The notes under the pieces were generated by a model. It was not told the DNA's origin, ran no database searches, and was given only the letters and a program-made list of their open reading frames with translations. Shown here one piece after another: positions 30,496-37,194 of a stretch of 64,000 nucleotides of DNA (positions are counted from its first letter, which is position 1; each line of letters begins with the position of its first letter). The position numbers and the translations under genes were made by a program. Source of the stretch: Chlorobiota bacterium (GTDB lineage: Bacteria; Bacteroidota; Ignavibacteria; OLB7); assembly GCA_016788565.1 (NCBI GenBank), contig JAEUSP010000114.1, forward strand, positions 1 through 64,000. Reading direction: 5' to 3'.

Positions 30496-31143
30496 CTACA
30501 GCCCAATCGTTCCCATGATCGGTTTCAGGTAGTCCCACCCTTCGCTTCGCATATCGGACCAGCTGAATCCATCTTGGTCGTTGCCGGGCATGATAAAGAC
30601 GGCATCGCCGATGGAGTAATCAAAGTCAATGTAGTTCACCGCGTCAATCAGCGTCTGGAAGCCGGAGGGGGTGAAGTAGTCATCTTCGGTGATTCCCTCC
30701 ACCATCTCCATGAACTGCGTCAGGCTGGGGGTGTATTCCAGAATAAAGGCCAGCGTCACCACCACGTAATCTTTTTCGCTGCTCATCCGGTAGGCTTCGT
30801 CCACCTCACGTCCAAGCTCTTCCGGGGCGGTGGCGGCGGTTGCTTCAATGCCAGCTACCCAGTCGTCGAACTCGGCGGTGGCATCGTCGGCATCGGTGAT
30901 GTAGTCCCAGTGGCCGTACTCAAAAAAGTGGATATTCTCACGAAGCACCGCTGTGATCCGCTTGTAGAACATGAACTTTTCGCCCGGGGATTCGGTGGGC
31001 ATCTGCTGGTTGATAACGTTATAGAGTTGCGCCCGCAGCGTGTCCTCACCATAGACGTTAATCACACACTGGATTCCAAAGAACAAGGGATCCCCTTCGC
31101 GGCGGCGGTTGAAGAGGTTGGAGAAAAATCCGCGACGGTTCAT
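30496..31143 (-). CDS. Conserved-looking cytoplasmic protein, unknown function
   Basis: 215 residues, no signal peptide although the N-terminus is Arg-rich (MNRRGFFSNLFNRRREGD), which might be membrane-associating. The body is acidic and aromatic-rich, with MFYKRITAVLRENIHFFEYGHWDYITDADD and a VVVTLAFILEY helix. I do not recognise the family. Its start overlaps the stop of the Tat-type lipoprotein gene by four bases, so the two are translationally coupled and are likely to act together. Confidence 0.7.
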   Translation of the reverse strand: MNRRGFFSNLFNRRREGDPLFFGIQCVINVYGEDTLRAQLYNVINQQMPTESPGEKFMFYKRITAVLRENIHFFEYGHWDYITDADDATAEFDDWVAGIEATAATAPEELGREVDEAYRMSSEKDYVVVTLAFILEYTPSLTQFMEMVEGITEDDYFTPSGFQTLIDAVNYIDFDYSIGDAVFIMPGNDQDGFSWSDMRSEGWDYLKPIMGTIGL

Positions 31144-32471
31144 CCGCTGTACCCCCTTCCGCTGCTGCGCCCGTACGAGCCACTGCTTCCGCTACGAATG
31201 CCGGTGGTGCGTCCGGTTCCATCCACCCGTGTGGAGACGCGCCCGAAGCCGCTTGGCCGCTGCTTCCCAACGCCGCTGCCGCCACCAACCGTCCGCCCGC
31301 TGAACATGGTTGGGCGGCGTGCGGGTGAGTAGGTGCTGCCGCGCAGCCCGGTGGCCGGAAGCCTTGAAGCTGCGGGAATGCCGGCACCAATAAACACCGG
31401 ATAATGGTAGAAAAACCACGGCGAGAAAAACGGGCTTCCGCCGTAGTGATAGACGGTGTGATGTGTTGTTGTTGTTCCCCCGCCGGCAAGCGCGGCTGCC
31501 GAATCGGCTTGCTGCTCCTTGGGGTCGGGGGTGAAATCCGAAAGGGCGATCATCGAGACGTTGATCCCTTTTTCCTTGTAGCTGGCAAAATCGTCGTTCA
31601 GGTCGTCCCGCTCGGCCGTGACCCCTTTGTCGGGAACGGCGTAGATCACGTTAGTGGTTTTCATCCCTTGCAGCTTATCGGCGGTGGGGATTTTGGCCAC
31701 GTAGCGGTTATCGAACTGAGTATCGGGGTCAACGTCGGCAGCAATCCGGTTGGCATCCAGCACCAGCACACCGGGGGCATTTGCCGGGCGTTTTGCCGCT
31801 TTTGCCGAGACCTCGGCAGCGTAGTAGAGCATGGCCCCCAACGTCTCGTGTGATTTCACCACACCAAGCGGATGCGGCCAATTATCGAAGGTGATGACGG
31901 GGTCGGCAACGTCGGCGATTGCGGCGGCGTATGCCACGGCTTCCGGGCCGGGGATATCCACCACAATCATGGTGGTTTCGGGGTTCTTGGTTTTCTGCAG
32001 AATCTCCCGCATCCCTAACCCGCGTGAGTAAGCGGTGCGCATCGCAGGGGTAAACACCGGCCCAATTTCCCCTTTCAGCGACGGCTGATCCAACGCTTGC
32101 ACCAGGGTTGGAACGGTGTACGGTTGCCATGCGGAGTTCTTCACCCCCCAGGCTTTCAGCAACGCGGCGGAGGTGTTGAAGTTGGACCAATCCATGGTCC
32201 CCTGGCTATCGGTGCTGGTTTTTCCGGTGAAGGTCAATTTTTTATCGGTCGAGCCAGCGTTCCAGCCTTCTTTTTTCTGAAGCTCAATGGCATCTTGTTG
32301 GACTTCGGTCGAGCCGTCGTCGGCATCCTCGGAACCATCGCCGCAGCCAACAACGCCAACGCCAGCGGCAACCGCCAGCGAGGCAATTCCAATTTTCGCG
32401 ATAGTCTTGTTTGCTTCCCGGCGCGTCAGCATCTGCTGCCACCACGGGGCATCGTGTTCGTTCGTATTCAT
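31140..32471 (-). CDS. Tat-type lipoprotein of unknown function
   Basis: 443 residues. The N-terminus has a twin-Arg motif (LTRREANKTIAKIGIASLA) followed by a lipobox-like VGVVGC (Cys about 43), so export by Tat and lipid anchoring are inferred. The middle is alpha/beta in pattern (TTMIVVDIPGPEAVAYAAAI, GVLVLDANR), perhaps a Rossmann-type domain. The C-terminal ~110 residues are low complexity: aromatic FFSPWFFYHYPVF then Gly/Ser/Arg-rich to the end (SGSSGSYGRSSGRGYSG). No family recognised. Such Gly/Ser-rich tails occur on surface-exposed lipoproteins. A candidate promoter lies at 32533. Confidence 0.7.
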   Translation of the reverse strand: MNTNEHDAPWWQQMLTRREANKTIAKIGIASLAVAAGVGVVGCGDGSEDADDGSTEVQQDAIELQKKEGWNAGSTDKKLTFTGKTSTDSQGTMDWSNFNTSAALLKAWGVKNSAWQPYTVPTLVQALDQPSLKGEIGPVFTPAMRTAYSRGLGMREILQKTKNPETTMIVVDIPGPEAVAYAAAIADVADPVITFDNWPHPLGVVKSHETLGAMLYYAAEVSAKAAKRPANAPGVLVLDANRIAADVDPDTQFDNRYVAKIPTADKLQGMKTTNVIYAVPDKGVTAERDDLNDDFASYKEKGINVSMIALSDFTPDPKEQQADSAAALAGGGTTTTHHTVYHYGGSPFFSPWFFYHYPVFIGAGIPAASRLPATGLRGSTYSPARRPTMFSGRTVGGGSGVGKQRPSGFGRVSTRVDGTGRTTGIRSGSSGSYGRSSGRGYSG

Positions 32472-35989: not shown

Positions 35990-36736
35990 ATGGAACAACA
36001 GAAGACACTATCTCGCCGGGGATTTCTGGCGCGTGCAATGGCGGCAACGGTGTTTGCCACGGTGGGGGGGAACGAAGTATTGGGGAGGATTTTCCCGAAG
36101 CTGAACCGCACAGCTAACAGCGGGATTTTCTCCGTTAGCTTGGAGCAGTTCACGGTGCTTCAGCAAGTGGATGGCTCGGTTCGGCTTTCGATTGCTGGGC
36201 TGAATCACAAGGTGTTGGTGACGCGCGTTGCCGAATCGGAGTTCACGGCGGTGTCGGAAGTCTGCACCCATTCCGGTTGTGCGATTGGCAATTATGATGT
36301 TGCCAACAAACGATTCCAATGCCCTTGCCACGGCTCCCGTTTTGCTGCCGATGGAAGCGTGCTTCGCGGCCCGGCTCCGCGTTCGTTGGATAGCTACCCG
36401 GTGCAGTTCGATGTCGCGGCCAATATGGTGCATCTGGAGATTGCGGGGATATCTGCCGCGCCGGATGAGCAGGGTGCGGCGGCGTATTTGGCTCCGATTG
36501 CTATCAACAATGGCACGGCAACGGTCCGCTACGGGCTGGCTGCGCCGGCACAAGTTTCCATCACTATCTGGACGGTGGCCGGGCAGAAGGTGTTGGTGCC
36601 GGTGGAACAAACTCAAGAGGCTGGGGAGCATACGGCGGTGATTGCTGTTGGTCAGTTGCCAGCGGGTAATTACCTATGCCGAATCCAGACTTCCGATGGG
36701 TTCTCGGCGGCGGAGAAGTTTGTGGTGGGGTGGTGA
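35990..36736 (+). CDS. Tat-exported Rieske [2Fe-2S] protein with C-terminal T9SS-like sorting domain
   Basis: 248 residues from the ATG giving MEQQKTLSRRGFLARAMAA; the frame is open 77 codons upstream. A twin-arginine signal (SRRGFLARA) precedes a Rieske domain of bc1/b6f type: CTHSGC (C92, H94, C97) and CPCHGS (C111, C113, H114), giving two Cys and two His cluster ligands plus the two Cys of the usual disulfide. Residues ~178-248 look like a T9SS type A sorting domain (VRYGLAAPAQVSITIWTVAG, LPAGNYLCRI, FVVGW end). So the cluster is probably inserted in the cytoplasm, exported folded by Tat and then passed to T9SS or the cell surface. No cytochrome b gene is adjacent. The combination is unusual. 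Confidence 0.82.
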   Translation: MEQQKTLSRRGFLARAMAATVFATVGGNEVLGRIFPKLNRTANSGIFSVSLEQFTVLQQVDGSVRLSIAGLNHKVLVTRVAESEFTAVSEVCTHSGCAIGNYDVANKRFQCPCHGSRFAADGSVLRGPAPRSLDSYPVQFDVAANMVHLEIAGISAAPDEQGAAAYLAPIAINNGTATVRYGLAAPAQVSITIWTVAGQKVLVPVEQTQEAGEHTAVIAVGQLPAGNYLCRIQTSDGFSAAEKFVVGW

Positions 36737-36749
36737 GAGGAAGAAGAGG

Positions 36750-36793
36750 TTCACGCAAAGACGCAAAGGGGGACACGCAAAGGACGCGAAGAA
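36750..36793 (+). repeat. Left arm of 44-base inverted repeat around the GxxExxY gene
   Basis: TTCACGCAAAGACGC begins the arm. The 44 bases match the reverse complement of 37236-37279 at 40 of 44 positions. The arm overlaps the 3' end of the GxxExxY gene. The units CACGCAAAG and GACGC recur inside it. Confidence 0.92.
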
Positions 36794-37194
36794 GAAAGGG
36801 GAAAGAAGGGGGGGGATGAATGGCTGTTGATGATGCGGTGGATGTCATTTTTTAGGGTTGGGGTGTTGAAATTTATGAGGAGGTCAAGTTTGTGGCCGGA
36901 AAGGCGTAGGTAGGTGAGGGGTTGGGCAAAATGTACGGGAGCCAGATTTTCCACGGCTTTTATTTCGACGATCAATTTTTGCTCAACCAACAGGTCTATG
37001 CGATACCCAGCTTCCAGAAAAACCCCCTTGTACACAAGCGGGACAGGCACGTGCTCTTGAACATGAAGCCCACGTACGCGAAGCTCGTAAACAAGCAGCC
37101 GTTCATACACCGATTCCAGCAGCCCCGGCCCAATTGCGCGATGAATATCTATCGCCGCACCAATAACCGCATACGATGCCTCATTCGCAGTCAT
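36751..37194 (-). CDS. GxxExxY protein (PD-(D/E)xK nuclease-like fold)
   Basis: 147 residues. The family signature GLLESVY (24-30, G-x-x-E-x-x-Y) and the YRIDLLVEQKLIVEIKAVE region (D67, E77, K79; a D-x9-E-x-K arrangement as in PD-(D/E)xK nucleases) are seen. The function of the family is not established to my knowledge; nuclease-type activity or nucleic-acid binding is inferred from the fold. About the last 20 residues (SSSRPLRVPLCVFA) are encoded by the inverted-repeat arm, so the native end is probably near NDIHRIINS. The gene is enclosed by the two arms, which looks like a small mobile or formerly mobile cassette. Confidence 0.88.
   Translation of the reverse strand: MTANEASYAVIGAAIDIHRAIGPGLLESVYERLLVYELRVRGLHVQEHVPVPLVYKGVFLEAGYRIDLLVEQKLIVEIKAVENLAPVHFAQPLTYLRLSGHKLDLLINFNTPTLKNDIHRIINSHSSPPFFPLSSSRPLRVPLCVFA

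Follow-up and report, generated by a model that had tools for sequence, protein, structure and literature searches.

A Rieske protein with a Tat signal peptide and a T9SS sorting domain as a candidate surface electron carrier in a Chlorobiota bacterium

Gene and protein modules

The window, i.e. the whole stretch of 64,000 nucleotides that was analysed, contains on its forward strand a Rieske-T9SS fusion gene (35990..36736) that encodes 248 amino acids plus stop. The protein starts with a Tat signal, which is followed by a Rieske domain and a C-terminal T9SS type A sorting domain. Taken separately, both the Rieske domain and T9SS cargo are known kinds. A longer open frame is present from TTG 35759, but ATG 35990 is the likely start because the orthologue from the same genus (G001:C15:16257-17012), which is 84% identical across the whole length, begins at the corresponding Met. 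The AlphaFold2 model of the whole protein has a pLDDT of 80.4, with a flexible linker between the Rieske domain and the tail (residues 156-162, 36455..36475), the pLDDT being below 50 at residues 155-161. The original prediction that this ORF combines a Rieske domain, a Tat motif and a T9SS-like tail is thus borne out by profiles and motifs.

The Rieske domain comprises residues 40-155 (36107..36454), as defined by the PF00355 profile and the structural model. In the Pfam profile search, which the original prediction had proposed as a check, PF00355 matches residues 66-137 with an E value of 6.4e-15 and 55.3 bits, i.e. far above the cut-off of 20.3. Both cluster boxes are complete, as had been claimed, and can be identified by direct reading and by aligned columns: box 1, CTHSGC (36263..36280), provides the ligands Cys92 and His94 as well as Cys97 of the disulfide, and box 2, CPCHGS (36320..36337), provides the ligands Cys111 and His114, the disulfide partner Cys113, and Ser116. 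Judging from these motifs, the domain probably carries a [2Fe-2S] cluster. A moderately high potential is to be expected, given the disulfide and Ser116, but with Phe118 at a position where Tyr is usual. The best fold match of the Rieske model is the Rieske protein from Chlorobaculum tepidum (8hn2; Z 12.8, rmsd 3.2, 109 aligned residues).

The Tat signal peptide spans residues 1-32 (35990..36085). Its motif SRRGFLA, with the twin arginine at residues 9-10 (nt 36014-36019), fits the S-R-R-x-F-L-K consensus, and the twin arginine is kept in 30 of 31 aligned members of the family; the Tat motif noted in the original prediction is thus present, with the short TAT model TIGR01409 narrowly missed (15.1 bits, cut-off 16.7). 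The h-region is short and weakly hydrophobic, its best 19-residue hydropathy being 1.06 as compared to 1.57 in the tailless Rieske protein of the same genome and 1.08-1.21 in three other proteins of this genome with a Tat signal and a T9SS tail. A signal-peptidase-I-like site (VLG|R) would place the cut after residue 32, and 24 of 30 members have a [V/L/I]-x-[G/A] site that signal peptidase I could accept 23-26 residues past their first Arg. The low hydropathy together with the peptidase-like site favours cleavage over a role of the signal as membrane anchor.

The T9SS type A sorting domain forms the C-terminus (residues 163-248, 36476..36733) and is defined by TIGR04183, the structural model and dN/dS values. 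TIGR04183 matches residues 175-246 with 26.7 bits (cut-off 23), in line with the original assignment of residues ~178-248 to a T9SS type A domain. PF18962 scores 25.0 bits, below its gathering cut-off of 27, because the tail has a degenerate version of motif A (usually QNYPNPF) in its first part; the LPAGNY motif and the C-terminal strand are kept. Modelled alone, the tail is a seven-strand Ig-like sandwich (pLDDT 86.8), so that the structural prediction, also suggested at the outset, yields a Rieske domain and a confident Ig-like tail. A fold search with the tail finds the T9SS tail of mirolase (8qb1; Z 9.0, rmsd 2.1, 76 aligned residues), tied with many other Ig-like domains, and a PDB sequence search with the tail profile gives weak matches (E 0.015-0.1), among them mirolase, gingipain, Por-sorting-domain chains and FlgD. 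As T9SS type A tails, that of RgpB among them, are seven-stranded Ig-like domains themselves (PMC4804311), fold comparison does not separate a T9SS tail from an ordinary Ig-like domain; the modelled fold is consistent with a T9SS tail but not specific, and it is the sequence profile that makes the identification. The original prediction had named an ordinary Ig-like tail as a finding that would speak against it. The tail is indeed predicted to be Ig-like, but since T9SS tails have the same fold it is the TIGR04183 score that distinguishes the two, and with this score above the cut-off and matches in 29 of 31 members the sequence profiles favour a T9SS tail over an ordinary Ig-like domain.

About 150 T9SS tails were scored in the genome, among which the tail of the Rieske protein ranks about 100th, and with so many tails a stray tail would by itself not be improbable. 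When the window gene is compared with its orthologue in G001, a single pair, our own script for the Nei-Gojobori method yields dN/dS values of 0.178 (Rieske domain) and 0.197 (tail). By this comparison the two regions are under similar purifying selection, and the tail is not decaying.

Conservation and variation of the fusion

With a profile built from ten full-length members, 42 loci with full-length matches were found, which belong to 38 genomes (out of 391 from the class) and 10 families; the numbers of loci and genomes are lower bounds, with six candidates scored per genome. Among 297 genomes sampled elsewhere in the phylum a single one (G464) has a full-length match. As the Tat-Rieske-tail order recurs across 10 families and at least 38 genomes, we reject a chance fusion. 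A single-protein search of public genome contigs returned a single locus, which belongs to a MAG with the title 'Armatimonadetes bacterium isolate SJ842' (L147, JADZEY010000015.1). This title looks wrong for the nearest public genome, and the genome from the same genus contains SprA and T9SS tails.

The individual modules are well conserved. All four cluster ligands are kept in 28 of the 31 aligned members, as judged by aligned column, and TIGR04183 and PF18962 each match 29 of 31 at E<=0.01; the canonical PNP motif of the tail is kept by most relatives. The disulfide cysteines Cys97 and Cys113 always go together: 15 members have both, 16 have neither, and none has only one of them. The exceptions among the ligands are paralogues. 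In one of them (G004:C10; L100:8429-9262) both histidine ligands and the twin arginine are lost, the canonical QNYPNPF tail being retained, and this joint loss, a single case, is what one would predict if Tat is used because of the cluster. In two paralogues from G002 one histidine ligand is missing, but the twin arginine is retained. Taken together, these three paralogues suggest that a normal cluster is not essential for the scaffold to persist. An odd Rieske variant occurs in G003 (L161:7969-8913): a long insertion precedes box 1, and the boxes have the unusual sequences CPHNAK and CREHAL.

The Rieske tree, based on 105 columns, is poorly resolved. The fusion requires 7 label changes as compared to 29 in shuffles, and a single clade is not rejected (p-AU 0.49); one origin of the fusion is thus possible, but not shown.

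Genome context and neighbouring genes

Components of both export machines are encoded in the genome: TatC (G000:C80, 222.4 bits) as well as SprA, PorV-family proteins and PorU, all three with scores above the cut-offs. The genome also contains a respiratory-type pair of Rieske protein and cytochrome b (G000:C119), in which the Rieske protein has no tail, and a further Rieske match, at C25, that belongs to a ring-hydroxylating oxygenase.

The window protein shares the cluster boxes including the disulfide, and the closest fold, with the Rieske subunits of bc1/b6f complexes (PetC; C. tepidum 8hn2). Unlike these, it has a T9SS tail and no cytochrome b neighbour, no match to cytochrome b being found within ~8 kb in the window or in the examined relatives, whereas the cytochrome b of this genome has a Rieske protein of its own. 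Moreover, the equivalog cut-offs for bc1/b6f Rieske proteins are missed by far (NF045928, 65.9 versus 250; TIGR01416, 49.0 versus 97.4), and on these grounds we reject an assignment as respiratory Rieske subunit. The best profile matches among solved structures are the stand-alone Rieske proteins PetC3 from Synechocystis (5cxm, E 9e-20) and kuste4569 from Kuenenia (9rk4, E 1e-16), which are small single-domain Rieske proteins like that of the window, but have no T9SS sorting domain. Our literature search found no paper on the redox potential of PetC3.

The window gene stands alone between genes for an OmpA/VWA protein and a T9SS-tailed M4 protease, both on the opposite strand. Just downstream, also on the opposite strand, lies a gene for a small, GxxExxY-like protein of 147 aa (36751-37194). 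Elsewhere in the window (31140-32471, reverse strand) a protein of 443 aa without Pfam match resembles a lipoprotein in an N-terminal segment (VGVVGCGDG) and is rich in Gly and Ser at the C-terminus.

Neighbourhoods were compared at 28 loci, the window included. At 12 of these, from six families (f1, f15, f24, f27, f29, f30), nuoE (PF01257), a gene for a cytoplasmic subunit of complex I, lies on the same strand and adjoins or overlaps the fusion gene; in L165:7445-10178, L167, L162 and L155 it does so apparently apart from other complex I genes. In family f19 one or two genes for MauG-family di-haem proteins are in line with the fusion at all six loci, and a second, tailless Tat Rieske gene is found at five, the sixth locus reaching the contig end. 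The nearest curated model for these MauG-family genes is TIGR04039 (MbnH family; E ~1e-78), with scores under its cut-off. The f19 genes for MauG/MbnH-like enzymes, Rieske-T9SS protein and tailless Rieske protein form an operon-like set (L163:5739-9300, L158:5836-9235, L160:344-3790, L164, L156), where the Rieske-T9SS protein has no disulfide and the tailless Tat Rieske has a lipobox-like cysteine. Additionally, a lipoprotein of the EB_dh haem type is encoded near the fusion at four loci, and three f10 loci have an M1 peptidase as neighbour instead. Among the neighbourhoods examined, no redox neighbour was found at the window gene, at its G001 orthologue or at the G004:C36 tandem.

Elsewhere the genome encodes a T9SS-tailed multihaem cytochrome of 664 aa with six CxxCH motifs (G000:C26:47164-49116; L195, L007). 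In G003 its orthologue is transcribed divergently beside the Rieske-T9SS gene, and relatives of it are found in 6 of 17 genomes that carry the fusion.

The genome further encodes three DUF1501 (PF07394) proteins with a Tat signal and a T9SS tail (G000:C130:133160-134722, C104:27359-28891 and C27:2146-3711; L138, L139, L145). They share the targeting modules with the Rieske protein, but their domain is unrelated and of unassigned function, and we know of no cofactor for it. Each of their genes comes after a second long ORF that resembles a conserved partner gene. The combination of Tat and T9SS, which the original prediction called rare, is thus rare as far as the literature is concerned, but not unique in this genome.

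Possible export route and function

With the type A cargo of the T9SS, e.g. the gingipain RgpB, the window protein shares the seven-strand Ig-like C-terminal domain, and its genome provides SprA, PorV and PorU. Reviews describe Sec as the route by which T9SS cargo reaches the periplasm (PMC9127263, PMC9251779), whereas the window protein has a Tat signal and the ligands of an iron-sulfur cluster. The T9SS moves folded cargo (PMC9251779). Our literature search found neither a description of a T9SS sorting domain on a Rieske protein nor a report of a Tat-exported T9SS cargo.

Based on our findings, and on family knowledge for the individual steps, we infer that the window protein is probably a surface Rieske electron carrier that is assembled for Tat and exported by the T9SS, a reading in which we have moderate confidence. 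The [2Fe-2S] cluster would be inserted into the Rieske domain in the cytoplasm and the folded holoprotein would be transported across the inner membrane by Tat, where the signal may be cut, probably at VLG|R, resulting in a soluble periplasmic holoprotein. The T9SS would then recognise the Ig-like tail and move the protein, still folded and with its cofactor, through SprA-PorV onto the cell surface, and PorU could take off the tail there. On the surface the Rieske protein may carry single electrons from one redox protein to another, or exchange them with an acceptor or donor outside the cell, and the T9SS-tailed multihaem cytochrome would be the best candidate partner in this genome. Several observations speak against a surface carrier: motif A is lost, PF18962 stays just under its cut-off and the tail has a low rank in the genome; no redox gene lies next to the window gene or its nearest relatives; some paralogues have lost one (two in G002) or both (G004) histidine ligands; the reviews cited above give Sec as the cargo route; and by fold comparison alone a T9SS tail is not distinguishable from other Ig-like domains.

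Alternatively, the protein might stay in the periplasm or inner membrane in a respiratory role, with the Tat signal serving as an anchor as in bc1/b6f Rieske proteins and the tail being a decaying or repurposed Ig-like domain. The bc-type fold match, the degenerate motif A with the PF18962 score below cut-off, the many ordinary Ig-like domains in the fold searches and the nuoE neighbours in relatives, which tie the family to respiration, agree with such a role, but we consider it unlikely, as the tail and the Rieske domain evolve at similarly low rates, most relatives have the canonical PNP motif, the h-region is less hydrophobic than that of the tailless Rieske and precedes a conserved peptidase-like site, and it is that separate, tailless Rieske which adjoins cytochrome b. 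Even less can be said for a surface protein without redox function, in which the Rieske fold would be reused as stable scaffold or adhesin: in three of 31 members one or both histidine ligands are missing and the tail is kept, but the full set of four in 28, the disulfide pair that is kept or lost as a unit and the complete set in the window protein make this highly improbable.

If the protein is a surface Rieske carrier, its partners may be of different kinds. In a narrower form of this reading, the Rieske protein and the T9SS-tailed multihaem cytochrome would carry respiratory electrons to or from minerals or partners outside the cell. The presence of the cytochrome in the same genome and the divergent gene pair in G003 are in favour of it, but the two genes are unlinked in this genome, relatives of the cytochrome are restricted to 6 of the 17 genomes and other relatives of the fusion have different redox neighbours, so that we regard this strict form as rather doubtful. 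The extracellular electron transfer put forward in the original prediction thus gains from the redox neighbours in relatives and the tailed cytochrome in the genome, but not from the window locus itself, and is offered here only tentatively. The f19 loci, with MauG-family genes in line at all six and the second, tailless Rieske at five, point to another possibility: on the surface or close to it, the Rieske protein might trade electrons with oxidoreductases such as the MauG/MbnH-like di-haem enzymes, which could serve, e.g., protein or peptide modification or peroxide removal. As this arrangement is found in one family only and none of these genes is present at the window locus, such a partnership seems unlikely for the window protein.

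What appears to be new is the combination of Tat signal, Rieske domain and T9SS tail, conserved as a family of which no description was found.

The usual electron carriers outside cells are haem proteins. The Tat-Rieske-T9SS family predicts that there are also iron-sulfur electron carriers outside cells and that the T9SS accepts folded, cofactor-loaded Tat cargo as well, and its recurrence in dozens of related bacteria suggests that the T9SS may carry finished metal proteins to the outside. It is conceivable, although we put this forward with clear reservation, that we are dealing with a conserved family of surface Rieske proteins that are assembled in the cytoplasm, pass through Tat and then the T9SS with the cluster in place, and form an extracellular electron-transfer layer. 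If true, this layer would, in bacteria with a T9SS, include iron-sulfur proteins and not only haem proteins.
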